Assembly: GCA_021108405.1 (NCBI GenBank)
Contig: JAIOQW010000196.1
Location: 1-32,258 of the forward strand
Length of the DNA stretch: 32,258 nt
Source: Methanosarcinales archaeon
GTDB taxonomy: Archaea; Halobacteriota; Methanosarcinia; Methanosarcinales; Methanocomedenaceae
Direction: 5' to 3'
Shown: one piece after another, positions 6,246 through 26,434 of the stretch
Layout: each line of letters starts with the position of its first letter
Numbering within the stretch: position 1 is the first letter of the stretch
The notes under the pieces: model-generated
What the model saw: the letters and a program-made list of their open reading frames with translations, nothing else
The model's database searches: none
Told to the model about the DNA's origin: nothing
Position numbers and translations under genes: made by a program

Positions 6246-6282
6246 AGGACGAAGATAAGTCATAAAAAGGAGGTAAATAAAA

Positions 6283-7573: not shown

Positions 7574-7640
7574 GCGATGACCCGCTGCAGCGGTCTGTGA
7601 AGTTTTCCCAGGGATATCGCACCAGATATGACGGTATTGA

Positions 7641-7739
7641 TTTAGCGATAAAATCCAGAATCTATTAAAAGAGAGAAATACTTTCATAGAAGATGTACGT
7701 GCGGAAGGAGACTTCAAATCAGCTAAAAAAACTGGATAA
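7641..7739 (+). pseudogene. Short orphan C-terminal fragment
   Basis: After an in-frame TGA at 7638-7640, 32 codons read FSDKIQNLLKERNTFIED and continue to TAA at 7737-7739. The peptide looks like an amphipathic protein tail but has no start codon and no recognised family. It is probably a remnant. The stretch 7574-7640 shows nothing. Confidence 0.25.
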
Positions 7740-7770
7740 AAAATTTATAAATACGACATATTCATCTAAT

Positions 7771-7804
7771 TTGTCCTACTAAAGTATGACAAATTATTTA
7801 AATA
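7771..7804 (+). promoter_or_regulatory. Palindromic operator next to a TATA box
   Basis: Positions 7771-7792 form a 22-bp imperfect palindrome (TTGTCCTACTAAAGTATGACAA; 9 of 11 base pairs matched). It directly abuts an archaeal TATA-box-like ATTTAAATA at 7796-7804. The TATA box lies about 22-30 bp before the ATG at 7826, so the ATPase mRNA is probably leaderless. A repressor at the palindrome would block TBP/TFB access. Similar half sites occur at 19809-19827. Confidence 0.6.
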
Positions 7805-7825
7805 TGTACTCCTATACTACTTCAT

Positions 7826-9121: not shown

Positions 9122-9170
9122 AAAAACCAGCTCATATTTTGTTCTCTACTTCGTCCCGATGACTATTTAA

Positions 9171-9186
9171 TACAATAATTATTGTA
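9171..9186. promoter_or_regulatory. 16-bp perfect palindrome upstream of the acyltransferase
   Basis: TACAATAATTATTGTA is a perfect palindrome in the 90-bp gap between the ATPase stop and the acyltransferase start, next to a TATA-like ACTATTTAATA at 9162-9172. It could be an operator. Its low complexity (only two G/C pairs) means chance is possible. Confidence 0.35.
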
Positions 9187-9210
9187 ATAAATGTGGGATG
9201 TCCTGGAAAT

Positions 9211-10509: not shown

Positions 10510-10606
10510 ACGAGCAACGATTGGTGATGCACAGGAAATACTTACTCTTCAGAAATTGGCCTATCAAAGTGAGGCTGAAATTTATATACAGATGAAGCGG
10601 AGATGA
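10499..10606 (+). pseudogene. Truncated GNAT acetyltransferase N-terminus
   Basis: A 35-codon frame that begins MIIERATIGDAQEILTLQKL, the typical first strand and helix of GNAT N-acetyltransferases, then ends at a TGA. The remaining roughly 120 residues, including the acetyl-CoA loop, are missing. It overlaps the acyltransferase by 11 bp at its start and the next gene by 4 bp (ATGA) at its end, so a deletion seems to have removed the body of a gene that was already coupled to its neighbours. Confidence 0.65.
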
Positions 10607-11325
10607 ATACAATGGATCATAAAACTAATTGTTTAATTTGCGGTCATGAATTAGTTTATAAAGACAGATCTGATAAATTAGAATGCTATTTTTGTAAGAA
10701 GATTTACGAGTCAAATGTGAAATGCGTGAATGGACATTTCATTTGTGATAGTTGCCATAGTTTACCGGCAAACGAGTTAATAAAGCAGTTCTGTATTAAT
10801 AGTAAATTAGAAGACCCTATCGAAATGGCTTTAATTTTAATGAGAAACCAGAAGATTAGAATGCACGGGCCAGAACATCACTTCCTGGTGCCTGCGGTTC
10901 TGCTCGTTTCTTATTACAATCTTAAAAATGATACTGAGAAAAAGGTGGAAAAGATAAAAGAAGCAGAAAAAAGAGCTAAAAATCTCTTGGGAGGGTTTTG
11001 CGGATATTATGGCGCTTGTGCTGCTGGCATTGGAACTGGTGTTTTTATCAGTTTGATTACCGAGGCTACCCCTTTATCTAAACATGAGTGGAAATTAAGT
11101 AATATGATGACTTCAAAGAGTTTACTTTCTATAGCAAATGTAGGCGGACCAAGATGTTGTAAAAGAAATACATTTTTAGCAATAACTGAAGCAGTGAATT
11201 TTTTAATTGAAAACTTCGGAATAACAATGAATATCAACAAAAATTTAAAGTGTGAGTTTAATTCTTTAAACAAAGAATGCTTGAAAGATGAATGTCCGTA
11301 TTTTTATAGTATATTAGAAAAATAA
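10603..11325 (+). CDS. DUF5714 domain protein with N-terminal cysteine-rich (metal-binding) region
   Basis: A 240-aa protein. The first 51 residues carry zinc-ribbon-like cysteines (Cys10, Cys13, Cys28, Cys31, Cys41, Cys48, Cys51). The rest matches my memory of the DUF5714 family: MHGPEHHFLVPAVLL, then GGFCGYYGACAAGIGTGVF, ATPLSKHEW and VGGPRCCKRNTFLA. The conserved Cys and His suggest metal or redox-cofactor binding, but the biochemical role is not established as far as I know. The start ATG overlaps the GNAT remnant stop. Confidence 0.75.
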   Translation: MNTMDHKTNCLICGHELVYKDRSDKLECYFCKKIYESNVKCVNGHFICDSCHSLPANELIKQFCINSKLEDPIEMALILMRNQKIRMHGPEHHFLVPAVLLVSYYNLKNDTEKKVEKIKEAEKRAKNLLGGFCGYYGACAAGIGTGVFISLITEATPLSKHEWKLSNMMTSKSLLSIANVGGPRCCKRNTFLAITEAVNFLIENFGITMNINKNLKCEFNSLNKECLKDECPYFYSILEK

Positions 11326-11343
11326 CAAAAAGATTGTATTAAT

Positions 11344-11610
11344 ATGACAGAAATTAGAACAGCTATAGATATCATTGACAATCAAATTGTTAAATTAATT
11401 GCCAGTCGTTCAAAATATGTAAAAGAGGCTGCAAAGTTTAAAAAGGATGAAAAAGCTGTAACAGATTCAAATAGAGTGCAAAAAGTTATTAATTCCAAAA
11501 AAGAATTAGCAGAAAAGTATGGTGCATCTCCGGAATTAATTGAGAAAATATATAAAATGATGATTGATTTTTTTGTAAATGAAGAAATGAAAGAATGGAA
11601 ATCAAAGTAG
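11344..11610 (+). CDS. Chorismate mutase type II-like (AroQ/PchB family) protein
   Basis: An 88-aa all-helical protein of the AroQ-class chorismate mutase fold, which rearranges chorismate to prephenate; PchB-type members remove pyruvate from isochorismate. Visible signature: IDIIDNQIVKLIASRSKYV in helix 1 (Arg22 as substrate-binding residue), AAKFKK with lysine, then SNRVQKVI and PELIEKIYKMMIDFFVNEE. The stand-alone form and YVKEAAKFK are closer to PchB-like or secondary-metabolism mutases than to housekeeping bifunctional enzymes. It follows the DUF5714 gene by 18 bp. Which of the two reactions it performs cannot be decided here. Confidence 0.8.
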   Translation: MTEIRTAIDIIDNQIVKLIASRSKYVKEAAKFKKDEKAVTDSNRVQKVINSKKELAEKYGASPELIEKIYKMMIDFFVNEEMKEWKSK

Positions 11611-11631
11611 CTTTTTGGATATCAACAACCA

Positions 11632-12120
11632 ATGATGGAAATGCGACCTATGGAAAAGAAAATTAAAATTGGGTTAATTACTTTATTCATTGGAATTATC
11701 GTTATTGGTGGATATTTTATCCTAAGCAATCAGCTAAAAATTTCAAAAGAAGAATTTGGAATTTATCTCTTGGAAAATGATGAATTAGTGATATCAGATA
11801 GAGATATTATATCGTACAATAAAAGTTCTCATGAAATCAAACTTACTGAAGAAGGAGTTAGAAAAATTAAAACACTGGATTTATATCATAAACTTTTTAC
11901 AATCAAATTAAATGGTAAAGAGATTTATAATGGATCATTTTGGACTGGTCTTTCTTCTTTATCTTATCCGGGAATAGTGATAATGGATGTTTCGCGTATT
12001 CAAGATAGTATAGTAATAGAAGCAGGTTATCCCTCCCAGGAGTTTTTTAAAGGTATGGACCCAAGAAATAATTCTGAAATATTTGATTATTTTCAAAAAG
12101 TTGGAAAATTAATCCAATGA
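11632..12120 (+). CDS. Membrane-anchored protein, unknown function
   Basis: A 162-aa protein with one N-terminal hydrophobic helix (about residues 12-31, KIGLITLFIGIIVIGGYFIL) and an extracytoplasmic domain of about 130 residues. That domain contains the pattern YLLENDELVISDRDIISYNK, then KLFTIKLNGKEIYNGSFWTG. ATG codons at 11632, 11635, 11644 and 11650 are possible; the last gives MEKKIKIG directly before the helix and seems natural. It is AT-rich like its neighbours. I recognise similar hypothetical proteins in bacteria and archaea but no function. Confidence 0.65.
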   Translation: MMEMRPMEKKIKIGLITLFIGIIVIGGYFILSNQLKISKEEFGIYLLENDELVISDRDIISYNKSSHEIKLTEEGVRKIKTLDLYHKLFTIKLNGKEIYNGSFWTGLSSLSYPGIVIMDVSRIQDSIVIEAGYPSQEFFKGMDPRNNSEIFDYFQKVGKLIQ

Positions 12121-12131
12121 GAAAATTAGAA

Positions 12132-12198
12132 CCCCACAACTCTTCGCCACTTTGTGGCTTGAAAGTATATACGAACGCAGATATACCCGAGTTGTGTG
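12132..12198 (+). repeat. Cloverleaf-like inverted repeat, attC-type recombination site candidate
   Basis: CACAACTC (12135-12142) pairs with GAGTTGTG (12189-12196). Inside this stem are two perfect hairpins: GCCAC/GTGGC (12146-12150 with 12154-12158) and GTATAT/ATATAC (12165-12170 with 12181-12186). The ends read CCACAAC and GTTGTGTG, close to the inverse core sites of integron attC elements (RYYYAAC and GTTRRRY). Size (about 67 bp) and position, between two short genes of different origin, fit an attC site. A tRNA is excluded by the absence of T-loop bases. Confidence 0.5.
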
Positions 12199-12228
12199 AA
12201 AGAGCAAGTCAGGACATGGAGAAATAAA

Positions 12229-12990
12229 ATGAAACAATGGTATGAAACACTATTTGAAGACTATGGTAAAAAATATGATAATGAAAACTTTACACAAGGC
12301 ACAATTGGTGAGTGTGATTTCATCGAAAAAGAAATTAATTATGATAAATCGCTAAGAATTATTGATATAGGATGTGGAACTGGCAGACACTCGATCGAAT
12401 TAACAGAAAGGGGATACAAGGTTATTGGAATTGATTTGTCAGAATCACAATTGGAGCAAGCAAAAGTAAAAGCAAAAGCTCAAAACCTGCAAATAGATTT
12501 TCAGAAACATGATGCAAGGAATTTGCCATTTAAGAATGAATTTGATTTGGCAATAATGCTTTGTGAAGGAGCATTTCCATTAATGGAAACAGATGAAATG
12601 AATTATGAAATATTAAAAAATGCTGCAAAGTCTTTAAAGAATTCTGGCAAGCTGATTTTTACAACACTAAATGGATTATTTCCACTATATCATTCAGTTG
12701 AAGAATTTTGCGCATCAACAACGGAAGAAGAGAATGCGACCTATAGAAGTAATACTTTTGATTTAATGACTTTCCGAGATCACAATATTACCACAGTAGA
12801 AGATGATTTTGGGAATAAGAAGGAATTGGAATGTAATGAAAGATATTATGTACCATCTGAAATTACATGGTTATTAAAAACATTAGGCTTTAAAAAGATT
12901 GATATTTATGGAGCAAAACTTGGAACTATTTCAAGGAATGATAAACTTACCACTGAAGATTTTGAAATGTTGGTTATTGCTGAAAAATAA
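12229..12990 (+). CDS. Class I SAM-dependent methyltransferase
   Basis: A 253-aa cytoplasmic methyltransferase with a standard Rossmann fold. SAM-binding motif I is IIDIGCGTGRHSIEL (about residues 44-58), motif II gives VIGIDLSESQLEQAK with the ribose-binding Asp, and DARNLPF and LAIMLCEGAFPLM follow as motifs III and IV. The start at 12229 has TGGAGA as ribosome binding site; an upstream GTG at 12196 falls inside the inverted-repeat element and is unlikely. The substrate is unknown. The gene is alone between two attC-like elements (12132-12198 and 13001-13088), the layout of a single-gene integron cassette. Confidence 0.85.
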   Translation: MKQWYETLFEDYGKKYDNENFTQGTIGECDFIEKEINYDKSLRIIDIGCGTGRHSIELTERGYKVIGIDLSESQLEQAKVKAKAQNLQIDFQKHDARNLPFKNEFDLAIMLCEGAFPLMETDEMNYEILKNAAKSLKNSGKLIFTTLNGLFPLYHSVEEFCASTTEEENATYRSNTFDLMTFRDHNITTVEDDFGNKKELECNERYYVPSEITWLLKTLGFKKIDIYGAKLGTISRNDKLTTEDFEMLVIAEK

Positions 12991-13000
12991 TGGCTCGCTC

Positions 13001-13088
13001 CATCGTACAATAGCGGCTACACGACTCCGCTTCGTTAAGATTGGTTCTTGCTGGTCACCAATTTCGTGTAGCTGCAAAACGTTATATG
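13001..13088 (+). repeat. Second attC-like inverted repeat
   Basis: GCGGCTACACGA (13013-13024) pairs with TCGTGTAGCTGC (13064-13075), 12 bp with a single G-T wobble. Within the loop ATTGGT (13040-13045) pairs with ACCAAT (13057-13062). The element ends AAAACGTTATATG, where GTTATATG mirrors GTTGTGTG in the element at 12198; the left end is less well conserved. Similar structures separate gene cassettes in chromosomal integrons. It follows the methyltransferase stop by 10 bp. Confidence 0.5.
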
Positions 13089-13122
13089 AAATTAATTATG
13101 AGTTAATCTACAAGGAATAACT

Positions 13123-14295
13123 ATGAAACAAAATATCAATAACAGGTTTACCTTTCCGGTCGGATATCATAAATTTCATAGAAAACAACTTTATAATTTT
13201 CAACTAAATCGTTGGTATTCTCTAGGATATTTGCCATATGAAGACCTGCAAGAGTTAGGCAAGAAAATATCAAATTTCAAATCGTGGAATACTGAAATGA
13301 AAAGCTTTGCTGAAAATGCCCTTAATCAAGGAAAATTATTAGAAGCAGCGTTTTATTTTCGTGCCGTTGAATTCTACACATTTCCTGGTGATAATGAAAA
13401 GGAGATTCTTTATGATAAATTTTCCGAGTTATTCTACAAATCTCTTAAAAACGATAATATTGAAAAACATAAAATCCCTTATGACACTTCATTTTTACAT
13501 GTAATTCGTAGACCACCAACCGATATTGAAAATAATAAAGGAACAATATTGTTACATGGTGGATTTGATTCGTTTATAGAAGAATTCTATTCAATGATGA
13601 AATATTTTTCAGAAAATGGTTATGAGGTGATTGGTTTCGATGGACCAGGACAAGGGGCAACTCTTAAAAAATATGGAATTGCTTTTGACTATCAGTGGGA
13701 GAAACCAACAAAAGCGATTTTGGATTATTTTAAACTTGAAGATGTTACACTGATAGGCTTATCAATGGGAGGCTGGTTATGTCTAAGAGCCTCAGCTTTT
13801 GAAAACCGCATAAAACATGTAATTGCTTCAGGAAATGCTTATGATTATTATAAAATACCACCGGCTATTGCCAGATGGTTAATGAATTTCTTCAATGCAA
13901 AGCTTAAAGACTACTCCAACAAAATAGCTCTTAAAAACATAAAAAAAGGCGGAATGGATGGATGGAAAATGAGCAACCTTATGTATATAACGAAAATTGA
14001 TGTTCCAATGTCTGCTTTCGATTACGCAATGCAAATGAATGAAAAAAATCTTCATTCGGAATTAGTGAATCAGGACGTTTTAATTTTAACCGGTCGAAAT
14101 GATCATTTTATCCCTTATAAACTGCATGATAAACAAATTAAACTCCTATCAAATGCAAAATCTTTGACTGATATTATTTTTACCAAAGAAACACAAGCCC
14201 ACAATCATTGCCAGATTGGAAATATCGGATTAGTTCTTGATACTATGCTTAAGTGGGTTGAAGAAAGAAATAGAAAGTTATCAAAAAAGGTATGA
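13123..14295 (+). CDS. Alpha/beta hydrolase with long N-terminal helical region
   Basis: A 390-aa hydrolase. Residues 1-135 are mostly helical and contain a TPR-like ALNQGKLLEAAFYFRAVEFY. The hydrolase fold follows: oxyanion-hole motif LLHGGFDSF (143-151), DGPGQG, nucleophile elbow GLSMGG with Ser214, acid Asp327 in TGRNDHFIP, and a histidine at 360 or 362 in AHNHCQIGN. These make a complete catalytic triad. Similar enzymes are esterases or C-C hydrolases; the substrate is unknown. Ribosome binding site AAGGAA (13111-13116). Its 3' end overlaps a DUF3795 remnant in another frame, so the last residues may be altered by a rearrangement. Confidence 0.85.
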   Translation: MKQNINNRFTFPVGYHKFHRKQLYNFQLNRWYSLGYLPYEDLQELGKKISNFKSWNTEMKSFAENALNQGKLLEAAFYFRAVEFYTFPGDNEKEILYDKFSELFYKSLKNDNIEKHKIPYDTSFLHVIRRPPTDIENNKGTILLHGGFDSFIEEFYSMMKYFSENGYEVIGFDGPGQGATLKKYGIAFDYQWEKPTKAILDYFKLEDVTLIGLSMGGWLCLRASAFENRIKHVIASGNAYDYYKIPPAIARWLMNFFNAKLKDYSNKIALKNIKKGGMDGWKMSNLMYITKIDVPMSAFDYAMQMNEKNLHSELVNQDVLILTGRNDHFIPYKLHDKQIKLLSNAKSLTDIIFTKETQAHNHCQIGNIGLVLDTMLKWVEERNRKLSKKV

Positions 14296-15468: not shown

Positions 15469-16683
15469 CTATTCGACAGTCCAGTCCATCCATTGGGCTG
15501 AGCGTAACTCCTTTGCAGTGTCACGGTCCACACCATAGACATTCTGGTAGAACTCTAGAAGCCACTCAGCAAGGTCTATTTCCCCGAATTGCTCCGGATA
15601 TGTTGCCTTTGCGATCACCATTACATCGATCGGGTATTCAAGCCGTTTAGCACAGTTGCAGGGTGACCAGGGTAATGATGCCACCCGTCTGTTCTTTATA
15701 GCATCCAGTTCCTGCAGGTTCTGGTAGTAAGGTGCCTCATAAAGTTCAAGTGGCGGATGGTATCCATATGCAGTGCAAAGTACAATTACATCAGGGTTCA
15801 ATACCAACACCTGCTCTGCACTCACAACTTTGAAATATCCGGGTTCCTGGAAGCTATTTTTTGCATGAACGAGATCCTGGATAAAGAAAGATTCAATCGT
15901 ATCAAGACCAAAGACCTGACCTGCACCATTAGCACTCCGGGCTTTAGGTGATGCCCCAAAAATCAACACTTCAGGTTTTTCTTCATCGGGAATGTCTTTT
16001 GTTTGCTCATTTACGTGGTTGACCTGGCTTTCAAGATATTTTGCAAGATTGGTAGCTTCGGCATCTTTGTCAAAGACCTGGCCAATGATACAGATCTCAT
16101 CAGAGATTTTTAACATATCCGGATCATCATAGCAACTTGATCCATATAGAACGACCAGCGGTATTCCAAGAGATTCAATCGTTTCAATGGACTTTTGCGT
16201 GCTTTCATCATCAATATACCGCATCGAACAGCTACCTAGACGGACGATCACTACATCAGGATCAAGGCCTGCAAGTGTTTCATAGTTCACAGCAGAACCG
16301 GATTGTGCAAATAATGGGAGGTCCACGATCCAGGGATTTAAATAGGTAACCGGATTCATCCCATTTTCATAAGTAAATGTCTCTCCACCGACGGTCTCGT
16401 AGGTGTAATTAAAGTTCCGCTGGAGACAGCTGGACCCCAAACCTACAAGAGTGTCCGAAACGCCGATTGAGGTCATAACCCCTTCGATCAAGCCATCACT
16501 GATCGTGGCCACCTTTTCAATATTTGTTGGTATTTGCACAGCAACTCCGCGACTATCAACAACTGTCCGGTACTGTTCGTGGGATACTGCAGCACCGTCG
16601 CTCGTTTTATCTACACATCCTACACTCAGCAGGACGCTCAATAATACAGTAACAAGAACACAATACTGTAAATTAAATTTCAT
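15469..16683 (-). CDS. Lipoprotein substrate-binding protein of a FecCD/BtuCD-type ABC importer
   Basis: A 404-aa binding protein (periplasmic binding protein family PF01497, as in iron-siderophore, heme and cobalamin uptake). The signal peptide ends in the lipobox LLSVGC (Cys23), so it is lipid-anchored to the outer face of the membrane. Typical elements are YRTVVDSRGVAVQIPTNIEKVATI, then LDPDVVIVRLGS, LNPDVIVLCTAYG and the C-terminal lobe with YPEQFGEIDLAEWLLEFYQ. It has several cysteines beyond the lipid one (GSSCLQ, GSCSMRY, GSSCYDD, SPCNCAK). Ribosome binding site AAGGAGGA precedes the start. It is the last gene of the operon permease-ATPase-methyltransferase-binding protein. Its cargo is not identifiable. 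Confidence 0.88.
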   Translation of the reverse strand: MKFNLQYCVLVTVLLSVLLSVGCVDKTSDGAAVSHEQYRTVVDSRGVAVQIPTNIEKVATISDGLIEGVMTSIGVSDTLVGLGSSCLQRNFNYTYETVGGETFTYENGMNPVTYLNPWIVDLPLFAQSGSAVNYETLAGLDPDVVIVRLGSCSMRYIDDESTQKSIETIESLGIPLVVLYGSSCYDDPDMLKISDEICIIGQVFDKDAEATNLAKYLESQVNHVNEQTKDIPDEEKPEVLIFGASPKARSANGAGQVFGLDTIESFFIQDLVHAKNSFQEPGYFKVVSAEQVLVLNPDVIVLCTAYGYHPPLELYEAPYYQNLQELDAIKNRRVASLPWSPCNCAKRLEYPIDVMVIAKATYPEQFGEIDLAEWLLEFYQNVYGVDRDTAKELRSAQWMDWTVE

Positions 16684-16721
16684 TTATTATTTCCTCCTTT
16701 TTGATATACTATATAATTATA

Positions 16722-17585
16722 TTAACTAAGTTCTCCCGCATCTCCCACTACATGTTTCTCCCACCAGATCTTTACAGAGGTATACAAATTTCTCATAACC
16801 AACGAATCATTGTTCTTTTCAAGAACACTCTGCAGATAATCTTTGAGCACTGATTCCTGAAGGTCCGTCGTGATACTATAGTGGACCCTGAAATGTTCAA
16901 TAGCCTCTTCAATAGAGTAAAAACGGTTGATATGCTCAACCGTGGAAACCTCCATATGGGGATAGATACCCATCTGGTAGAGCACATTGTAAATCACATC
17001 GCATTTTAGGCCAGGCTGATAATCAGCCTCATAAAGGGAGGGCCAGAGTGCCCTATAATGGGTGTCCCATGAGGGTTCCCCTGCAAACCAATATACGTAG
17101 ACATATCTCGAGGATGCGTCCATCATCTTTTGCATTGCTTCTTTTATATCAGGCATACCTAAAGAATAAGAGGCTATAACCACATCATAAGGGCCATCAA
17201 GGTCGGCTGTTACATCAACATCTTCCCATCGCTTCCGAACACATTTAACATTGTCAATTCCATACTCTGCGATATTGTCCAGCAGCACACTCATCATACC
17301 TTCTGAGGGTTCTACCGCTGTTACATGGGTAACCTGATGGGAAATTGGAATAGTAAGTGTTCCTGGCCCGGCACCAACATCGAGTATTCTGGAGTCTGGT
17401 GTGAGCGCAAGTCCTTTGATGGTTTTTTGGGTTTGTTCTTTGTTATTCTGCACTGCCTTCCAGTATTGCCTTGCATTTTCTTTTTTCTGCCAGATACCTG
17501 CACAATCCATAGCATTATTTGATTCAGTATTCTTTGATGCCTGATTTTTCCAGATTTCATTCCAGTCAATTATATTATCATTCAT
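16722..17585 (-). CDS. Class I SAM-dependent methyltransferase of the uptake module
   Basis: A 287-aa methyltransferase. Motif I is ILDVGAGPGTLTIPI (about residues 67-81), followed by VTAVEPSEGMMSVL and KRWEDVDV. The N-terminus IIDWNEIWKNQ and the C-terminal IWWEK are shared with the methyltransferase at 22699, which sits in the other uptake module. The start at 17585 has AGGAG (17593-17597) as ribosome binding site and lies 2 bp after the ATPase stop; an earlier in-frame ATG at 17609 overlaps the ATPase gene. It may methylate the imported ligand or a chelator. I infer this from position only. Confidence 0.85.
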   Translation of the reverse strand: MNDNIIDWNEIWKNQASKNTESNNAMDCAGIWQKKENARQYWKAVQNNKEQTQKTIKGLALTPDSRILDVGAGPGTLTIPISHQVTHVTAVEPSEGMMSVLLDNIAEYGIDNVKCVRKRWEDVDVTADLDGPYDVVIASYSLGMPDIKEAMQKMMDASSRYVYVYWFAGEPSWDTHYRALWPSLYEADYQPGLKCDVIYNVLYQMGIYPHMEVSTVEHINRFYSIEEAIEHFRVHYSITTDLQESVLKDYLQSVLEKNNDSLVMRNLYTSVKIWWEKHVVGDAGELS

Positions 17586-17587
17586 AG

Positions 17588-18430
17588 TTATTCTCCTGTC
17601 ATTATACACTCATTCGGAGCTCTGGCATCTGTTTTGGTTTCCAGTCTTTTTTTTACAGCTACATCACGAGGCAGTATCATTTTAACCTTGCCCAGACTCC
17701 TGACTGTACACATGTTCTGGTAGATCTCGTCGAGGATTGTCTCTGTGATCACATGGTTGGGAGCCCCCTGGCCGATGATTCCATTATTATTCATGACCAC
17801 TACTTTATCACAGAACCATGTGACATGATTTGGGTCATGACTGCATGCTAAGATAGTAATTCCCTGTTCTGCCACCTTGCGCAGTAGTGTCCAGATTCTC
17901 ATCTGGTTGCTAAAATCAAGAGCAGAGGTAGGTTCGTCCAGGAATATCAGTTTTGTTTCCTGAGCTATTGCCCGCGCTATCAACACCATCTGACGCTGTC
18001 CGCCTGATAACTGGTTGTAAGGTTGTTCACCAAGATGGGAAATATCCAGCAGTTCAAGTGCGTCCAGCGCTTTTTTTTTGTCAGCACGCTTGACACCAAA
18101 AAAGCCTCCGAGATGTGGTGTTCTTCCCATCAATACCACTTCCTTCACCAAATATGGAAATGGAGGCTTATGCTCCTGGGGAACGTAGGCAACCACCTTA
18201 GCCATATCTTCAATCCTGTGTTTTTTAATATCTATACCATCCATGACCACCGAACCCTTATGGAACTTTAAAAATTTCATGCAGCATTTAAAAAGCGTGG
18301 TCTTTCCACATCCATTTGGACCAAATAACCCGCAGAGTAGTCCTTCTTCAACATCAAAAGAGATGTTTTTAAGAATTTGGTTTTTTCCATAGTTAAAATG
18401 AATATCTTCTACTTGTAGCATAAGAATCAC
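17588..18430 (-). CDS. ABC importer ATPase, FecE/BtuD type
   Basis: A 280-aa ATPase that powers the adjacent permease. Walker A is GPNGCGKTT (residues 37-45), signature LSGGQ (141-145), Walker B LIFLDEPTSALD (161-172), and the switch His lies in ACSHDPNHV. VPQEHKPPFPYLVKEVVLMGR is typical for iron-chelate/cobalamin importers. The GTG start overlaps the permease stop (GTGA); an ATG at 18421 is an alternative. The C-terminal tail of about 35 residues (VKKRLETKTDARAPNECIMT) is longer than in most relatives. Confidence 0.92.
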   Translation of the reverse strand: MILMLQVEDIHFNYGKNQILKNISFDVEEGLLCGLFGPNGCGKTTLFKCCMKFLKFHKGSVVMDGIDIKKHRIEDMAKVVAYVPQEHKPPFPYLVKEVVLMGRTPHLGGFFGVKRADKKKALDALELLDISHLGEQPYNQLSGGQRQMVLIARAIAQETKLIFLDEPTSALDFSNQMRIWTLLRKVAEQGITILACSHDPNHVTWFCDKVVVMNNNGIIGQGAPNHVITETILDEIYQNMCTVRSLGKVKMILPRDVAVKKRLETKTDARAPNECIMTGE

Positions 18431-19509
18431 CCGATCAAAGAACTTCCTTTACTTCTTAAAAGATAGAAAAGGTATGGAGCCCCAAGAATTGACGTGATAA
18501 TCCCAACTGGAATCTCGGAAGTCGTCAGCGTGCGTGCCATCGTATCACAGATGATAAGATATACCCCTCCAAGCATTGCTGCAGAAGGAATTACAAATCT
18601 GTGATCAGGTCCGAGGATCATTCGCGTTGCGTGAGGCATCATAAGGCCAACCCATGCGATAATTCCAACAGTTGAAACCGCAACAGCTGTGATAAGCGTT
18701 GCAAGTGCGATTAAGATCATCTTGGATTTCTCAGGATTAATACCCAGTGCCTGGGCTTCTTCATCTCCCATCGAGAGAATATTTAGTTTCCAGCCATACA
18801 TCCACAATACCAGAAAAGACAGAGTAACAATAGGTACGATAATGGCAACGTCATCCCAGGTGGCATAGTAGAACCCTCCCATCAACCAGAACACAATCTC
18901 ACGTAATGAGGAATCATTAGCTGTATATTTCAGGATGGAAACCAGGGCTGAAAAAATAGAACCAATAATGATCCCTCCAAGAATGAGAGTGATAATCGGG
19001 GTCTGGCCTCGCGTTCTTGCCAGTATATATGCAGCTATAACGGCAATTGAGGCAAAAATAAAGGCTGATATCTGGATAGAGAAAAAAATATGGGGATAAA
19101 CAATCCCCAGTGCCGCCCCGAACGCCGCTCCCGAGGAAACACCGAGAATATAGGGTTCGACCAGTGGATTCCTGAAACATCCCTGGAAGACCGCACCGGA
19201 TGTTGCAAGGGCAGCACCTACTATAATAGCCAACAGGACCCTTGGCAATCGTATATCCCAAATTATAGTATTGTGCAGTTTATTAAAATTAGAAACATCA
19301 TGAAGAGGGCTGAGATTAGCGATGATAGTTGCATATACATCTACAAAAGAGATATTGTATGCACCAAGCACCATGGCGAAGGCTGCTGCAAGTAACATCA
19401 CTACAAAAAGGATGCAAAGGATTACAAACTTTCTCATATCCGAAAAACCCTTTACATCATGATTGTTCATCCTTTCCAGGATATTAGTGTGTTTTAATCT
19501 TTTAAACAT
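18427..19509 (-). CDS. FecCD/BtuC-type ABC importer permease
   Basis: A 360-aa membrane protein with about ten hydrophobic helices from the FecCD family (iron-chelate, heme, cobalamin). Family signatures: IRLPRVLLAIIVGAALATSG, FRNPLVEPYILGVSSGAAFG, LMGGFY, VGIIAWVGLMMPHATRMILG and PVGIITSILGAPYLFYLL. The N-terminus carries about 25 extra hydrophilic residues; starts at 19470 or 19437 would be closer to the family norm. A TATA-like sequence on the minus strand (about 19526-19531) suits leaderless initiation near 19509. It is the first gene of the four-gene minus-strand operon. Confidence 0.92.
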   Translation of the reverse strand: MFKRLKHTNILERMNNHDVKGFSDMRKFVILCILFVVMLLAAAFAMVLGAYNISFVDVYATIIANLSPLHDVSNFNKLHNTIIWDIRLPRVLLAIIVGAALATSGAVFQGCFRNPLVEPYILGVSSGAAFGAALGIVYPHIFFSIQISAFIFASIAVIAAYILARTRGQTPIITLILGGIIIGSIFSALVSILKYTANDSSLREIVFWLMGGFYYATWDDVAIIVPIVTLSFLVLWMYGWKLNILSMGDEEAQALGINPEKSKMILIALATLITAVAVSTVGIIAWVGLMMPHATRMILGPDHRFVIPSAAMLGGVYLIICDTMARTLTTSEIPVGIITSILGAPYLFYLLRSKGSSLIG

Positions 19510-19950: not shown

Positions 19951-20754
19951 ATGCATAAAAAAATAATGTCAATAGGCGATGTATGGGAACTCGACCAGAA
20001 CTACACCCTCACTGTCAGCGGCATTGATCAGGATGGTGAAAAAGCGACACTGGAACTTGCAAAGAACAGTGATGTTGTTGAATTTACAGTGATCGAGGCA
20101 GGAAATGCTTTTGAATATAAAACCGACATTGAAAGCACAGATGATATTATTCTCTTCACCTGTAAGGTTGATACAGTTCTGCGTGGAACCAATTCCAGTA
20201 TAGTCGTGCTAAAAACAGTTAGACATTATTCTGACACCCCGTTTATCCTTGAAACCGGGGATGAGTTTGGTGATTTTAAGGTAACTTCTATCACAAATGA
20301 CACGATAGAAATGAAAAACACCAAAACAATTTCGTGCTCGCTTGATAAAACAATTGATCTTCTGGATGACTGGATAAAGTTAAAAGTTTCAAGCAAGGGC
20401 TATTGGGGTTATGTCTATTCCGAAGAAATACTGGAGTGTCCGGAACTCGTAGAAGTATCTTCTGCTACTGAATCTACGGTTATCGATTCCACCATACAGA
20501 ATACCACTGCATCAAACATTTCTGACGATACCGGGACAAATAGTACGGTTGCTGCTGTCCTTCCAGTAACGTCTGCTGCGACACCCAGCGCCATTTCTGC
20601 AGTGACAACAGGAACGGAACAGCCCGCGGTGCTCGCAGACGCAGGGGGTGCCGGAATAGCACCGTATACATTACCTGCACCGTGTACAGCATCACTGTTC
20701 GGTTTGTTTGGGATCTTAGCATTGATGATGAATATCAGTAAAAATAAAAAATGA
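19951..20754 (+). CDS. S-layer-domain protein with Ser/Thr-rich stalk and C-terminal membrane helix
   Basis: A 267-aa protein. Residues 1-165 match a Methanosarcina-type S-layer domain (PF07752-like): IGDVWELDQNYTLTVSGI, DGEKATLELAKN, then DDIILFTCKVDTVLRGTNSS. The stretch 165-235 is rich in Ser, Thr, Ala and Val, as in extracellular stalks. Residues about 246-260 are hydrophobic and followed by ISKNKK, a membrane anchor. The ribosome binding site TGAGGT (19938-19943) supports this start, but no signal peptide is present, which is unexpected for a surface protein. Either the N-terminus was lost or export uses another route. It opens the plus-strand module 37 bp before the cohesin gene. Confidence 0.75.
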   Translation: MHKKIMSIGDVWELDQNYTLTVSGIDQDGEKATLELAKNSDVVEFTVIEAGNAFEYKTDIESTDDIILFTCKVDTVLRGTNSSIVVLKTVRHYSDTPFILETGDEFGDFKVTSITNDTIEMKNTKTISCSLDKTIDLLDDWIKLKVSSKGYWGYVYSEEILECPELVEVSSATESTVIDSTIQNTTASNISDDTGTNSTVAAVLPVTSAATPSAISAVTTGTEQPAVLADAGGAGIAPYTLPAPCTASLFGLFGILALMMNISKNKK

Positions 20755-20791: not shown

Positions 20792-21370
20792 ATGAAAAAT
20801 AATTCACATAATGGTTTAAAGAGAAGTACCCTGTTCGGTATCTGCTTTACTGTGTTATTTATTGTATTTGCAGCAGTTCCTGCACAGGCGCAGCAAACTA
20901 CAGTCAGTCTGAATACTCCTGAACTGGTAAAAGGAAGTACGGTTCATGCTGCAGTAGAAATTGATAATGTTAACAACCTTGATGCAGGTCAGTTTGGCCT
21001 GTCATTCAATCCGGATGTTCTAAAAGTTATCAATGTCGAGAACGGGAGCATAGAGGGAACGAAGATACCAGTACAGTGGAGTTCAATTGATAGTGATATA
21101 GTTATGGTGATCTTCAATCTGGAAGGTGTTACCGGAATAAGCGGTTCAGGACAACTGGCCAGGATTGGGTTTGAGGTGATAGGCGATGGTGAGAGCAATC
21201 TACTCATTTCTAGCGGACTGCTCGGTAATACTGAAGCTAACCAGATCGACACGGACTGGGGAGTTACTACTGCGACAGATGTGGAAAAATCTACGCCAGG
21301 ATTTGAAGTAGTGTCTGCCCTTATTGGTTTTATCGTGATTCTCGGATTGATCAGGTTTCGTAGGAGTTGA
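20792..21370 (+). CDS. Cohesin-domain surface protein with PGF-CTERM anchor
   Basis: A 192-aa surface protein. Residues 1-34 are a signal peptide (cleavage after AQA). Residues 35-160 form a cohesin-type beta-sandwich: TVSLNTPELVKGSTVHAAVE, NLDAGQFGLSFNPDVLKV, then GSGQLARIGFEVIGDG. The C-terminus has PGF (169-171), a hydrophobic helix and RFRRS, a PGF-CTERM signal recognised by archaeosortase A, which leads to lipid anchoring outside the cell. Start chosen at 20792 because AAGGTGAT (20781-20788) precedes it. Cohesins bind dockerins, and the very next gene (6 bp away) begins with a dockerin, so the two products are likely partners. Confidence 0.85.
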   Translation: MKNNSHNGLKRSTLFGICFTVLFIVFAAVPAQAQQTTVSLNTPELVKGSTVHAAVEIDNVNNLDAGQFGLSFNPDVLKVINVENGSIEGTKIPVQWSSIDSDIVMVIFNLEGVTGISGSGQLARIGFEVIGDGESNLLISSGLLGNTEANQIDTDWGVTTATDVEKSTPGFEVVSALIGFIVILGLIRFRRS

Positions 21371-21376
21371 TGCTAT

Positions 21377-22678
21377 ATGACAGGTAACAATTTATTGTTC
21401 GGGGTGGTCATAACTGCGATCTTACTGATCTGTGTGCCATCAGCATCAGCCTACACACTTGGTGTCTTCGGCAACGCAAATGAGGATGACACTATAGACC
21501 TCAAAGATGTGGAATATACCGAATCCATCATTCTGGGACTTGATGATCAAACACAACTTGCAGATGCAAAGTACGACGGCGAGATCAATATCTTTGATGT
21601 GATGCAGATCGAGCAGATCATGCTCGGGCAGGAGAAAGAGCTGACGGTAATGGATATTGATGATCGAATCGTGACAGTACCAAAGCCGATCAAGCGAATG
21701 ATCACCAGAGCTCCTGACGATGCCAGATTGACAATCGCTCTCGGTGCGGGTGATAAACTTGTAGCATCGGAAGCTGCTGTCAAGTCCTGTCTCTGTCCCA
21801 CAAATTATGAGGCGTATACTGAGGGATGTATGGATTGCTATTTCGAAATACTTAATGAAAGAATGCCTGACCTTCCAGAGACGAGTACAAGACATACCAT
21901 AGACTATGAGTTGATGGCGTCTCTTAATCCGGATGTGATCTTTACAACCGAAGATGGCGATCTCTTTGAAAACAAGGTGGGTTGCCCCTGTGTAACCTTC
22001 GGTTATGGCAGTAACGAATATAATTACGATGGTTTGTATGGACAGATCGAACTTATGGGATATGTATTGGGAACAAGGGATGAGGCAGATGACCTGATCG
22101 ATTTCATCGAATCCAAGGTTGATATGGTGAGATCTGTTACAGATGCAATCGACGAGAGTGACAGGCCAACTGTCTATTTTGCACCAAGAGGCTGTTCCAA
22201 GGGTTTCTATGATCCAAAAGAGGGGCGTGATTTCACACGTACCGTGTCGAGCTATGAACCTCTGGATATCGCCGGCGGGATCAATGTAGCAAGAAATGAG
22301 CCGACTGGCAACCTTAATGTCGGAATCGAGCAGATCATCGCATGGGATCCGGACTATATGTTCGTTGCCTGTAGCAAAGCCGAGGACAAGGGTTCGATTA
22401 ATATGATCATGGAGTCCGATGATCTGAAGACAGTGAGTGCCGTGAAGAATAACATGGTCTGTAATAGTTTCTATCCGTATTGCAGGGGTCACCCTCCTGA
22501 CAGAAGCCTCTTTAATATGATATATATGGCTAAACTGCTTCATCCGGAAGAATTCGCGGATCTGGATCTGGAGGCAGAGGGTAACGAGATATTCAAGGCA
22601 TTCCTTGGAGTCGACGGTGTCTTCACACAGTATGCCGACTGGCTGGAATGGCCACGAGAGTATCTGGATACGCAATAG
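21377..22678 (+). CDS. Dockerin-substrate-binding protein fusion
   Basis: A 433-aa exported protein. Residues 1-25 are a signal peptide without a lipobox. Residues 29-84 form a type I dockerin with two calcium-loop repeats (NANEDDTIDLKD at 33-44 and DAKYDGEINIFD at 63-74), each followed by a helix ending in LG. From about 92 it is a PF01497-type binding protein: DDRIVTVPKPIKRMITRAPD, LNPDVIFTTEDGD, WDPDYMFVACSKAE, and a C-terminal GVDGVFTQYADWLEWP. Cysteines are numerous (CLCPTNYEAYTEGCMDCYF, GCPC, RGCSKGF), which could bind metal. Instead of a lipid anchor the protein probably docks to the cohesin encoded just upstream. It delivers ligand to the permease at 24549. Confidence 0.88.
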   Translation: MTGNNLLFGVVITAILLICVPSASAYTLGVFGNANEDDTIDLKDVEYTESIILGLDDQTQLADAKYDGEINIFDVMQIEQIMLGQEKELTVMDIDDRIVTVPKPIKRMITRAPDDARLTIALGAGDKLVASEAAVKSCLCPTNYEAYTEGCMDCYFEILNERMPDLPETSTRHTIDYELMASLNPDVIFTTEDGDLFENKVGCPCVTFGYGSNEYNYDGLYGQIELMGYVLGTRDEADDLIDFIESKVDMVRSVTDAIDESDRPTVYFAPRGCSKGFYDPKEGRDFTRTVSSYEPLDIAGGINVARNEPTGNLNVGIEQIIAWDPDYMFVACSKAEDKGSINMIMESDDLKTVSAVKNNMVCNSFYPYCRGHPPDRSLFNMIYMAKLLHPEEFADLDLEAEGNEIFKAFLGVDGVFTQYADWLEWPREYLDTQ

Positions 22679-22698: not shown

Positions 22699-23550
22699 AT
22701 GGCAGGAATAATAAACTGGAATGAATTATGGAAGATGATGGTGTCGGGGCATAAGCGCAGAGGAGATCACGGTGAAGATATGGACCGCGCATGGGACAAG
22801 CGAGCAAAGAAGTTCAATGAGTCTGTGATGCAGCATACCGAACGTACCCGGAGGCAGATAGCAACGCTCGAATTGAAACCAGAGTATACTGTTCTGGACG
22901 TTGGTGCAGGAACCGGAAGGCTTTCAGTTCCGATTGCAAAGCAGGTAAAGTCTGTTACTGCGGTAGACCCTTCAAAAGGCATGCTTGCGTGCTTACAGGA
23001 GAATATAAAGAGGGAGGGCATAACAAATATAACGTCCATTAACAAACGCTGGGAGGACATCGAGCTGGGTGTGGATATAGAACCGCACGATGTCGTCATA
23101 GCATGTCATTCGCTTGGTATGTTCGATATACAAAAAGCACTTGCAAAGATGGATGCCGCATCGAAAAGATATGTCTACATTATCAATTTTGCAGGCAAAT
23201 GGATGGGGAACGGTGACGAAGAACTCCTAAAAGCAGTTTTCGGGGAAGAACATCGACCCCGGCACCCATTGGATTATATTTTATTTTATAATATTCTACA
23301 TGATATGAAAATATATGCGAATGTCAACATTCTGGACACGGAATTTGAACAGCACTACGACAGTCTGGATGATGCAGTGGACAGATGGGCAGAGATGCGT
23401 GATATACCAAAAGAGAAGGAGGACGTTCTGAGAGAGCATCTATCCGGAATTCTGGCAAAGAACAATAAAACAGGAGCGCTATTTTTCAAACGTAAATCAA
23501 AAAGCGCTACGATATGGTGGCAGAAAAATGAAAATACTAATTTGCGGTAA
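22699..23550 (+). CDS. Class I SAM-dependent methyltransferase, paralogue of the one at 16722
   Basis: A 283-aa methyltransferase. Motif I is VLDVGAGTGRLSVPI (residues 65-79), then VTAVDPSKGMLACLQEN, KRWEDIEL and VVIACHSLGMFDI. INWNELWK at the N-terminus and IWWQK at the C-terminus match the protein at 16722. Ribosome binding site GAGGTAAT lies just before the ATG, 20 bp after the binding-protein gene. Position inside an uptake operon in both modules suggests a function tied to the ligand, such as ligand modification. Its stop overlaps the next start by 23 bp. Confidence 0.87.
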   Translation: MAGIINWNELWKMMVSGHKRRGDHGEDMDRAWDKRAKKFNESVMQHTERTRRQIATLELKPEYTVLDVGAGTGRLSVPIAKQVKSVTAVDPSKGMLACLQENIKREGITNITSINKRWEDIELGVDIEPHDVVIACHSLGMFDIQKALAKMDAASKRYVYIINFAGKWMGNGDEELLKAVFGEEHRPRHPLDYILFYNILHDMKIYANVNILDTEFEQHYDSLDDAVDRWAEMRDIPKEKEDVLREHLSGILAKNNKTGALFFKRKSKSATIWWQKNENTNLR

Positions 23551-23761
23551 AGGCGGCAGTGGAAAGAATATTTACTTCGTTCTCAACAAAGTTGATGACG
23601 ATAATAGGGCTATGATGCTCGAATCACTGGATCAACTGAATGTTGTAGGTGCAATTCCGGCAAACAGGGATATATCCAGGGCTGGTCTGTCAGGTGAAGA
23701 ACTCAATCTCAATCTACCAGAGATCAAATCGCTTGCCGAGGCGATCCTGGGAGGTAATTGA
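23528..23761 (+). pseudogene. CooC/MinD-like P-loop ATPase, internally deleted
   Basis: The 77-aa frame starts MKILICGKGGSGK, the deviant Walker A of CooC/NifH/MinD-type ATPases, but the residue after the lysine is Asn instead of Ser/Thr. It then jumps to NIYFVLNKVDDDNRAMMLES and GAIPANRDISRAGLSGEEL, which belong near the C-terminus of the family. Roughly two thirds of the protein (switch regions, DxD motif, CXC) is missing, with the frame kept. CooC relatives help insert nickel into CO dehydrogenase or serve related metal-cofactor steps, which hints at a metal theme for the operon. Confidence 0.75.
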
Positions 23762-23762
23762 G

Positions 23763-24539
23763 ATGGCGCTGAACATTCCATTTTTGATCGGAGGAGTCGT
23801 TGTCCTCGTCCTCATAGTGGTGGCTGTGAAGATTACAAGGCAGTATGAGCGGGCTGTGGTATTTCGGTTCGGGAAATTGCTCGGTGAGAAAGGTCCTGGC
23901 CTATTTTTGATTATACCATTCGTGGACAGGATCGAGAGGGTTGACCTGCGTGTGAGGGAGCTTGATGTACCAAAGCAGACCGTGATAAGCAGTGACAACG
24001 TAAGCCTCGATGTGGACGCGGTAATCTACTACAAAGTAACAGACTCATGCAAGGCGATTGTTGAGGTTGAGGAGTATGAGGCTGCAACATCACTCCTTGC
24101 CCAGACGACACTTCGTGATGTGCTCGGTCAGAATGAGCTTGATAGTATTCTCTCTGAGAGGGACAGGATCAATAAAACGGTACAGGAGCTACTGGATGTT
24201 GCAACCGACCCATGGGGGATGCAGGTTGTTGTGGTCACCATGAGGGATGTTGCTCTGCCGGAGAATATGCTTAGAGCGATTGCAAGACAGGCAGAAGCAG
24301 AACGAGAGAAGAGGTCGAGGATCATACTTGCCGAGGCCGAATACCAGGCATCGGAGAGGATGAGTGAGGCTGCAGCATTCTATGAGAAAACGCCTGTTGC
24401 GCTGAAGCTCAGGGAATTCCAGACATTAACCGAGATAGCTAAAGAGAAGAATCTGATTGTGATATCGAGCGGTGCAACAGGAGGAAATGGGGATATTAAC
24501 ACAACCGCTGGTCTCACCAAAGCATTTACCGAGCGGTAA
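23763..24539 (+). CDS. SPFH/Band 7 (stomatin-like) membrane protein
   Basis: A 258-aa stomatin-type protein. An N-terminal membrane helix (about residues 5-24, IPFLIGGVVVLVLIVVAVKI) is followed by YERAVVFRFGKLLGEKGPGL, DLRVRELDVPKQTVISSDNV and VDAVIYYKV, the SPFH core, then the coiled-coil RQAEAEREKRSRIILAEAEY. Such proteins form membrane microdomain scaffolds, often with a membrane protease (NfeD/STOPP), which is absent here. The start at 23763 has GGGAGGTA (23750-23756) as ribosome binding site. Its place inside an ABC importer operon is unusual. Confidence 0.9.
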   Translation: MALNIPFLIGGVVVLVLIVVAVKITRQYERAVVFRFGKLLGEKGPGLFLIIPFVDRIERVDLRVRELDVPKQTVISSDNVSLDVDAVIYYKVTDSCKAIVEVEEYEAATSLLAQTTLRDVLGQNELDSILSERDRINKTVQELLDVATDPWGMQVVVVTMRDVALPENMLRAIARQAEAEREKRSRIILAEAEYQASERMSEAAAFYEKTPVALKLREFQTLTEIAKEKNLIVISSGATGGNGDINTTAGLTKAFTER

Positions 24540-24548: not shown

Positions 24549-25646
24549 ATGGCAACAGAAGTAAGGCGCAGATCATCACGCACCGGAAAGCTGAGTGCGA
24601 CGCAGGAAGCATACAAGAAGTTCATCTTCAGAAAGACGGCCTTTATGAGTACAATCTTGCTGTTGATCATACTCCTGACCGGTGTGATCATAACACTTGG
24701 ACCACTGGATATCACAGTCACAGAAGCTTATTGTGCACTTCTTAATAAAATTTTTTCAAATTGTTTCACGGTAGATGATCTTGCAGAACAGGTTATATGG
24801 AACATACGTTTTCCCAGGATCATCGGGGGCGTTATGGCTGGCTTCGGTTTTGGCGTATGCGGGTGCGTGATGCAGGCAGTGCTAAAAAATCCGCTGGCAA
24901 GCCCTTTCACACTCGGGATCTCGTCAGGTGCGCAATTTGGTATCGCTCTTGCAGCAGTTCTCGGTGTTTCTGTAATCGGAGGACCATACCTTCTCATAGG
25001 AAATGCCTTCGTATTTGCATTGTTATGTTCGGGTTTCATCATTGCACTGGCAACCATTAAAGGGGCAACATCCGAGACCATGATACTTGCCGGGATTGCA
25101 GTGAACTATCTATTCACTGCATTGAGCCAGTTATTCAAGTACTTCGCTTCAGACGAGCAACTGCGACTGATGACAAGCTGGGGAATGGGTGATCTTGCTG
25201 CTTTCACGTGGGAGAGATTCCCGGTCATACTCACCGTCTTTGTGATCTGTGTCCCTCTACTCATGTTGAAAGCGTGGGACTTAAACATCATGACAGCTGG
25301 AGACGAGACCGCAAAGAGCATCGGTGTGGATGCTAACAACGTCAGAACGTTCATCATGGTAATCTCAAGTCTGTTAGTGGCAACTGTTGTCTGTTTTACC
25401 GGAACCATCGGGTTTATCGGTTTGGTCGCACCGCATATGGCACGCATGATAATAGGCGGCGATCACAGATTTCTCATCCCGGCATCCGGCATTCTCGGTG
25501 CATTCGTATTAATCTCGGCTGATGCCATTGGAATGAATATCATAGCTCCCACCATAATCCCCACAGGGATCATGACATCCCTCATCGGGGTTCCGTTCTT
25601 TATATACCTGATACTAAAAGGAAAGAGGAGGGAGTTCTGGACATGA
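24549..25646 (+). CDS. FecCD/BtuC-type ABC importer permease (second module)
   Basis: A 365-aa permease with about ten membrane helices. Family signatures: IRFPRIIGGVMAGFGFGVCG, LKNPLASPFTLGISSGAQFG, SWGMGDLAAF, FTGTIGFIGLVAPHMARMII and PTGIMTSLIGVPFFIYLIL. A basic N-terminus (TEVRRRSSRTGK) of about 30 residues precedes the first helix. Ribosome binding site AAGGAAG at 24539-24545. The stop overlaps the ATPase start (ATGA). It is paralogous to the permease at 18427. Confidence 0.92.
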   Translation: MATEVRRRSSRTGKLSATQEAYKKFIFRKTAFMSTILLLIILLTGVIITLGPLDITVTEAYCALLNKIFSNCFTVDDLAEQVIWNIRFPRIIGGVMAGFGFGVCGCVMQAVLKNPLASPFTLGISSGAQFGIALAAVLGVSVIGGPYLLIGNAFVFALLCSGFIIALATIKGATSETMILAGIAVNYLFTALSQLFKYFASDEQLRLMTSWGMGDLAAFTWERFPVILTVFVICVPLLMLKAWDLNIMTAGDETAKSIGVDANNVRTFIMVISSLLVATVVCFTGTIGFIGLVAPHMARMIIGGDHRFLIPASGILGAFVLISADAIGMNIIAPTIIPTGIMTSLIGVPFFIYLILKGKRREFWT

Positions 25647-26434
25647 TGATAAAACTCCAGGCAAAGGATATTGTGTTCAGCTACAATAGCTCACCAATTC
25701 TCAATAATGTGAATTTCGATATACCTCCATCCAAGCTTGTGAGCATCGTGGGTCCGAATGGTTCTGGCAAATCCACGCTCATCAAATGCATAGACCGGAT
25801 ACTGGCACCGCAAAGCGGCAGCATTCTTATCGACAGAAAGGAGGTAACCAAAATGAAGAGGATGGATGTTGCAAGAAACATTGCTTATGTGCCGCAGAAT
25901 TCGCTACGCATTTTTCCTAACAACGTCGTTGATACGGTGCTCATGGGCAGGCGCCCACATCTCGGATGGCTCAGCAGTGATGATGACGAGGAGAAGGTGT
26001 GGGAGGTATTGAGGATGCTTGGGATTGAGGATCTCGGAATGAGCAATTTCAACGAACTGAGCGGGGGTCAGCAGCAGAAAGCGCTGCTTGCACGGGCGCT
26101 TGTTCAGGAAGCAGACGTTCTACTGCTCGATGAACCAACCAGCAATCTTGATATATGGCATCAACTCGATGTGATGAATATAATAAGAAATCTTGTAAAT
26201 AAAAAAGTGATCACTGCTCTAATGGCGGTCCATGATCTGAACCTCGCATCACGATATTCAGACAGGATGATTATGATGAAAAAAGGTAAAATTGTTGCTG
26301 CTGGCGAGCCTTCTTATGTGCTGACTCCGGAGAATATTAAGTCTGTCTATAATGTCGAAGCAGCCGTAAGGCGACAATCAGAGACACCCTACATTATACC
26401 GTTGAAACAGGTCGCGATGGGGAGAAAAGGATGA
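25643..26434 (+). CDS. ABC importer ATPase, FecE/BtuD type (second module)
   Basis: A 263-aa ATPase. Walker A is GPNGSGKST (residues 37-45), signature LSGGQ (139-143), Walker B VLLLDEPTSNLD (159-170), and switch His in AVHDLNLASRYSD. It is coupled to the permease upstream by a 4-bp overlap and is its obvious energy partner. The C-terminal VYNVEAAVRRQSETPYIIPL is typical of iron-chelate/cobalamin importers. Confidence 0.93.
   Translation: MMIKLQAKDIVFSYNSSPILNNVNFDIPPSKLVSIVGPNGSGKSTLIKCIDRILAPQSGSILIDRKEVTKMKRMDVARNIAYVPQNSLRIFPNNVVDTVLMGRRPHLGWLSSDDDEEKVWEVLRMLGIEDLGMSNFNELSGGQQQKALLARALVQEADVLLLDEPTSNLDIWHQLDVMNIIRNLVNKKVITALMAVHDLNLASRYSDRMIMMKKGKIVAAGEPSYVLTPENIKSVYNVEAAVRRQSETPYIIPLKQVAMGRKG

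Follow-up and report, generated by a model that had tools for sequence, protein, structure and literature searches.

Two adjacent genes in the genome of a methane-metabolising archaeon encode a putative split surface anchor for an ABC importer. The first encodes a membrane-anchored cohesin protein of 192 aa (20792..21370), and the second a dockerin-bearing importer binding protein of 433 aa (21377..22678). Both lie in the window, by which we mean the whole stretch of 32,258 nucleotides analysed, contig C23 of a 3.67-Mb archaeal genome; features are on the forward (+) strand unless stated otherwise. It is likely that the cohesin is lipid-anchored and that, through a predicted non-covalent binding of the two modules, it keeps the binding protein in the vicinity of its permease. 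The genes share a reading frame and are separated by 6 bp, and they have the composition that the original prediction assigned to them: a signal peptide, a cohesin and a PGF-CTERM-like tail in the first, and in the second a signal peptide without lipobox, two dockerin calcium loops and a PF01497 domain.

The first gene was taken to start at the ATG at 20792; the open reading frame list instead uses a GTG at 20756. Its signal peptide (20792..20890), read from the sequence, consists of a hydrophobic core and then VPAQA/QQTTV. The cohesin domain (residues 37-153; 20900..21250) matches PF00963 at E=7.5e-10 and 39.6 bits, over the curated cut-off of 24.1, and the profile of its subfamily matches cohesins in the PDB (4ums, 3.3e-7; 2xdh of Archaeoglobus, 7.8e-5). 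A low-confidence structural model (pLDDT 43) returned a Foldseek list led by and rich in cohesins (2vo8, 1anu, 5nrk, 2vn5, 2ccl), every E-value being at least 0.001. The orthologue in G011, a genome of the window's family recorded as ANME-2 cluster archaeon (98% complete, 6% contamination), is 80% identical, and a paralogue in the window's own genome is 77% identical. The C-terminus of the protein, TPGFEVVSALIGFIVILGLIRFRRS, holds a PGF-CTERM-like sorting signal (21296..21367), read from the sequence, in which the PGF motif (PGFE), a transmembrane helix and a basic tail (RFRRS) are all present. This tail scores below both cut-offs (PF18204, E=0.02, 15.3 versus 18.8 bits; TIGR04126, 7e-4, 19.1 versus 24.5 bits). 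Because the 77% identical paralogue clears the TIGR04126 cut-off (24.9 versus 24.5 bits) and archaeosortase A is present in the genome (TIGR04125, 2.3e-71), processing by this enzyme is what one would naturally assume. The linker between the cohesin and the PGF motif is about 10 residues long.

The second gene begins with a signal peptide (21377..21451), read from the sequence, with cleavage expected after SASA; we class it as lacking a lipobox because its single Cys is preceded by LLI. A type I-like dockerin follows (residues 26-90; 21452..21646; profile match 1.6e-33). Its two complete 12-residue calcium loops, NANEDDTIDLKD (residues 33-44; 21473..21508) and DAKYDGEINIFD (residues 63-74; 21563..21598), have Asp/Asn ligands and keep all calcium ligands. 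Recognition positions 10-11 are Leu42-Lys43 in loop 1 and Ile72-Phe73 in loop 2. Alone, this dockerin is sub-threshold in Pfam (Dockerin_1, PF00404, E=0.17; 12.6-16.9 bits versus a cut-off of 22.9). Ten of its 14 sister dockerins match PF00404 at E<=1, the best at 9.3e-10, and the profile of all 14 matches type I dockerins in the PDB, led by 2ccl_B (1.4e-5), with 1ohz_B at 3.4e-5. Cellulosomal enzymes of clostridia, or the dockerin modules of these, make up the ten best PDB matches of this profile. Since the sister profile matches solved type I dockerins, the dockerin is not a chance pattern, and on these profile matches we regard it and the cohesin of the first gene as genuine modules.

The dockerin runs directly into a cysteine-rich PF01497 substrate-binding domain (21647..22675; 2.4e-27, 96.3 bits versus a cut-off of 27.5), whose closest relatives of solved structure are binding proteins of the iron/siderophore type (2etv, 4.3e-20). 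The protein is equally close to a homologue in a genome of another family (G017, L091 8534-9835, 81%) and to that of G011, of its own family (82%); these similar identities suggest transfer between ANME lineages. Genes of CobN/Mg-chelatase type accompany several operons with dockerin-bearing binding proteins (L091 9991-13797; L098 921-4664; L093 8357-12109). Our best guess for the substrate is a metal chelate or tetrapyrrole, because of the iron/siderophore-type relatives, a weakly CpaM/CbiT-like methyltransferase in the operon, and the CobN-type genes near the G017 orthologue and others.

Downstream, the importer operon continues with a SAM methyltransferase (22699..23550; CpaM/CbiT-like matches, sub-threshold) and an SPFH/Band-7 protein (23649..24539; PF01145, 1.7e-41), both conserved in the operon, a FecCD/BtuC-type permease (24549..25646; PF01032, 2.7e-85) and the ABC ATPase of the importer (25643..26434). 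Upstream of the pair lies an S-layer-domain ORF (19951..20754), which we considered as an intact S-layer partner and rejected. It is 5'-truncated and has no signal peptide: its match covers positions 111-253 of the 259 of PF07752, and about 170 N-terminal residues, the N-terminal third, are missing relative to the Methanosarcinaceae counterpart. A full-length version (~420-440 aa) sits in a nearby slot in Methanosarcinaceae. The suggested assembly of the pair with an S-layer protein encoded just upstream is therefore not supported at this locus. The original prediction also contrasted the pair with a lipid-anchored paralogue at 15469..16683 on the reverse (-) strand, in a divergent FecCD/ATPase/methyltransferase operon (15469-19509). 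That protein does have a clear lipobox (LSVGC), but it is a remote paralogue (27% identity to the second gene's product) and its anchor and that of the pair are probably both linked to lipid ultimately, which reduces the contrast to an anchor on a separate polypeptide rather than the lack of a lipid anchor. About 15 kb from the pair, at 2487-5999 (+), the window also encodes a protein of 1170 aa that combines S-layer domains with 27 CxxCH haem motifs; it is an S-layer multihaem cytochrome such as has been reported under the name ANME-MHC.

The arrangement is not peculiar to the window. In ten loci, which span three families and two transporter classes, the gene immediately upstream of that for a dockerin-bearing binding protein encodes a cohesin: the window, C175/C17 and C13 in the same genome, one each in G011, G034, G038, G040 and G017, and two in G028. 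The gap between the genes is -4 to 16 bp in seven of the ten, 31 bp in one and ~140-160 bp in two. In the G040, G028 and G017 cassettes the product of the upstream gene either has several cohesins or is a cohesin protein that lacks the tail. In the window's own genome there are 14 matches to cohesin and 20 to dockerin; a PGF-like tail is present on three cohesins of the same subfamily as the window's (on C23, C175 and C13), and eight binding proteins carry dockerins (on C23, C175/C17 and C13, three on C96, and one each on C180 and C113). Contigs C175 and C17 (L089, L097) share 55 identical overlapping bases, and thus form a second complete locus of cohesin, dockerin-bearing binding protein, FecCD and ATPase. 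On C13, the cohesin gene overlaps by 4 bp a gene for a dockerin-SBP_bac_5 protein, after which come Opp/Nik-type permeases and ATPases, so the arrangement serves a second importer class besides that of PF01497. Adjacency is not obligatory, since a close orthologue on contig C9 of G017 has CobN rather than a cohesin upstream. Proteins with several cohesins of this subfamily occur in the ANME relative G028 (L112), where a 3144-aa (255-9689) and a 1415-aa protein (9693-13940), with at least six and at least four cohesins respectively, lie beside a dockerin-bearing binding protein. Contig C98 of the window's genome encodes a 1616-aa S-layer protein (L121 346-5196) with a cohesin outside the importer subfamily (PF00963, 1.1e-9) and, C-terminally, a partial match to dockerin that is below threshold (0.28).

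The two modules also occur together across genomes. Counting close matches to the dockerin profile (17 genomes) and to the cohesin profile (20) in the same 100 genomes of the order, both module types are found in 17, cohesin only in 3, dockerin only in none and neither in 80 (Fisher p = 1.7e-16, a value that ignores phylogeny). Within the window's own family the same three of 17 genomes have both modules, for which p=0.0015, the fairer figure, likewise with phylogeny ignored. G011 has a single cohesin and a single dockerin of these subfamilies, adjoining each other, along with other Pfam-type cohesins and dockerins outside them. The recurrence of the cassette and the joint distribution of the modules lend good support to the original reading of the pair as a tether, for which co-conservation in relatives had been named as a test.

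We propose that the products of the two genes together make up a split anchor at the cell surface for the FecCD/BtuCD-type importer. The first protein would be exported and archaeosortase A would exchange its PGF-CTERM tail for a lipid, leaving the cohesin near the membrane on its linker of about 10 residues. The second would be exported as a soluble binding protein, whose N-terminal dockerin would load two calcium ions and dock on the cohesin, keeping the binding protein beside the permease encoded downstream (24549-25646). Because the linker is so short and the dockerin is joined directly to the binding domain, the docked protein would lie close to the membrane. Seawater contains about 10 mM calcium. 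Given this abundance in the marine setting of ANME-2, a standing, effectively permanent tether is to be expected and not a calcium switch, and the calcium-dependent exchange that had been envisaged finds no support. A joint fold of cohesin and dockerin, for which the TGA between the in-frame genes was read through as Trp as a folding device only, reached pLDDT 43 and pTM 0.33 with the dockerin unfolded, on a three-row alignment.

We examined how selection has acted on the pair. In comparisons with the window, dN/dS is 0.12-0.22. The cohesin has values of 0.16-0.21, the dockerin of 0.12-0.16 and the binding domain of 0.19-0.27. These ratios indicate that both genes are under purifying selection, and decay of the pair into pseudogenes was rejected on the same values. 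The dockerin is the fastest-evolving part, with dN of 0.19-0.20 versus 0.07 for the binding domain.

Both partners depart from their relatives at positions that bear on recognition. Of the 44 cohesin domains compared, all of them related, 33 have both of two conserved residues, an Asp (GQFDLSF) and an Arg (TIRVLF), and changes at the two positions are associated (Fisher p = 0.004, computed on related sequences). The window cohesin has lost both. The positions were placed by profile alignment to cohesins of C. thermocellum and C. cellulolyticum, and we take the Asp to correspond to position 41 and the Arg to position 81 in C. thermocellum numbering. Gly69 (20996..20998), in place of the Asp, aligns with position 41, two residues past the contact Asp39, and Met105 (21104..21106), in place of the Arg, aligns with position 81, two residues before the affinity hot spot Leu83. 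Asn37/Asp39 are described as cohesin contact residues (PMC5772552) and Leu83 as the hot spot (PMC12484212). Since each lies two residues along the strand from a published contact or hot spot, the conserved Asp and Arg are probably on the dockerin-binding face. The window dockerin, in turn, is an outlier at the recognition positions, with LK versus MQ in loop 1 and, in loop 2, IF where others have MQ or IL; Thr has been replaced, by Glu and by Met, two residues beyond each of the loops. Most relatives have MQ in both loops and their dockerins are near-symmetric, in contrast to the window dockerin, whose LK and IF depart from the internal two-fold symmetry of recognition residues that goes with dual binding. 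Such coordinated change on both partners resembles a specificity switch, and the pair would then be private and single-mode, as far as these few sequences indicate.

The cohesin might nevertheless be a general socket, the binding protein exchanging with others or docking on multi-cohesin scaffolds. The three PGF-type subfamily cohesins set against eight dockerin-bearing binding proteins in the genome fit sharing; the dockerins of C96, C180 and C113 hardly differ from one another, with no cohesin next to them in the contigs retrieved, and multi-cohesin proteins adjoin dockerin-bearing binding proteins in other genomes (L127). The recognition residues point instead to a private pair, as the window dockerin has LK/IF against MQ and MQ/IL and its cohesin is without the conserved Asp/Arg pair, and in G011 the one cohesin and one dockerin sit side by side. 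The exchangeable or clustered capture system suggested earlier is supported in part: it agrees with the gene counts but not with the changed residues on both sides, and shared docking by the window pair is possible but on balance doubtful. It is quite plausible, if short of likely, that the window pair has drifted into a specificity of its own and that the other dockerin-bearing binding proteins of the genome share canonical anchors.

Alternatively, the dockerin may attach at a distance from the membrane, to a scaffold of the S-layer or matrix, leaving the neighbouring cohesin protein to hold something else. The cohesin-bearing S-layer protein on C98 (1616 aa) would be a candidate scaffold, and surface and matrix roles have been proposed for ANME cohesin-dockerin systems by Chadwick et al. 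(PMC9012536). The C98 cohesin, however, is outside the subfamily, three of the five matches to the subfamily profile in this genome are PGF-type anchors, and both the cassette pattern and the genome with one cohesin and one dockerin favour the neighbour as partner, which makes this alternative unlikely. We consider it more improbable still that the modules are relics, the dockerin no longer binding and the binding protein being secreted free, as seems likely in Methanothrix. The rapid evolution of the window dockerin, its weak Pfam match, its altered recognition positions and the Methanothrix orthologues without an anchor gene would agree with this, but its dN/dS is 0.12-0.16, its calcium ligands are all kept, and the changes on the two partners occur together. 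Docking of the binding protein on its neighbouring anchor is the reading that we prefer.

Orthologous binding proteins occur in other Methanosarcinales, at 54-61% identity in Methanothrix and its family and 45-50% in Methanolobus and Methanococcoides. The downstream set of methyltransferase, SPFH, FecCD and ATPase genes is common to the window and Methanothrix, and FecCD and ATPase are common to Methanosarcinaceae too. Among the Methanothrix loci listed and inspected, none has a PGF partner in the position next to the binding-protein gene on its upstream side, and the binding proteins listed have an N-terminus that is short and EF-hand-like, or none. Methanothrix-type loci (L131-L154) keep the importer operon, some with a DLDGD..VSDEE EF-hand-like N-terminus, and tandem copies occur. 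In Methanosarcinaceae (L102, L103, L104; L155-L161, L163, L164) the slot holds a PGF-anchored protein of ~200 aa, whose gene usually overlaps that of the binding protein by 4 bp, and the binding protein starts with the EF-hand-like PCDxxDG..LTExEV..YxLDDVGDASY. Contigs labelled Deltaproteobacteria and Syntrophomonadaceae (L158, L164) also carry the Methanosarcinaceae operon and are probably mis-binned. In a check of ten genomes, strong matches to this partner and to the module were single-copy in the same three genomes, and a fourth had a weak partner match (5.8e-5).

The Methanosarcinaceae partner was modelled as a beta-sandwich (pLDDT 76, pTM 0.71). As a cohesin homologue it was rejected by profile comparison (hhalign probability 0.3); its 50 best PDB folds include no cohesin, and the fold search gave generic immunoglobulin-like matches, none with an E-value <0.001. 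Likewise, comparison did not demonstrate the methanogen EF-hand-like module to be a dockerin homologue. By these comparisons the gene slot is conserved and its contents are not recognisably homologous. We put forward tentatively, as a possibility we would not call probable, that the slot for an anchor gene directly upstream of that of the binding protein predates what it now contains, that the PGF-anchored beta-sandwich of Methanosarcinaceae grips the EF-hand-like module, and that the window came by its cohesin-dockerin version through replacement or extreme divergence, private specificity being acquired afterwards.

The general phenomenon is already published. Cohesins and dockerins of ANME were counted in 2017 (PMC5244752), partner bacteria also carry such modules (PMC10553843), and Chadwick et al. 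(2022; PMC9012536) describe dockerin-bearing ABC binding proteins and multi-cohesin proteins of ANME and cite an experimental demonstration of archaeal cohesin-dockerin binding. The systems described there belong to the same group of organisms and join a dockerin to a NikA/OppA or TroA-type binding protein, with multi-cohesin scaffolds. In that text we found no single-cohesin PGF-CTERM anchor directly upstream of a binding protein, no recurrence in two importer classes and no co-divergence. Likewise, the two-gene PGF-anchor cassette, its two-class recurrence, co-divergence and replacement in methanogens were not found in these papers, from a search of open-licence literature, and priority is uncertain.

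The cohesin (2xdh) and dockerin of Archaeoglobus fulgidus are likewise archaeal and non-cellulosomal, and 2xdh is matched by the cohesin subfamily profile (7.8e-5); within the literature covered, that pair is not described as an importer anchor. With clostridial type I pairs (2ccl, 1ohz, 2vn5) the window shares both modules, the two calcium loops and recognition at loop positions 10-11, but the cargo is a transport protein instead of a glycoside hydrolase, and the anchor has a single cohesin with a PGF-CTERM tail instead of SLH or sortase attachment. As regards a cellulosome, the locus holds one cohesin and a transport protein, and no multi-cohesin scaffold with dockerin-bearing glycoside hydrolases. 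The haloarchaeal PGF-CTERM binding protein (TIGR04281) is also of PF01497 type, and both would be held ultimately by archaeosortase chemistry; there, however, the tail is on the binding protein itself, whereas in the window anchor and binding protein are separate polypeptides, the latter matching TIGR04281 weakly (3.3e-9), far below cut-off. The operon of Methanolobus and Methanococcoides resembles that of the window in its binding protein, in a PGF-anchored partner directly upstream and in FecCD and ATPase genes downstream; it differs in that the partner is no recognisable cohesin and the EF-hand-like N-terminal module is no demonstrable dockerin.

How binding proteins are retained on a cell surface that consists of an S-layer only is a basic question of archaeal physiology; the answers known so far are that the protein itself bears a lipid or a membrane tail. 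If the anchor is separate and takes up a plug-in module, a single surface site could accommodate many binding proteins, or these could be insulated from one another. With its three sockets and eight plugs, the genome is a natural matrix for direct tests of specificity. The version found in methanogens may represent a protein-protein clip of a new kind; if so, archaea would possess two or more unrelated clips for one and the same importer.
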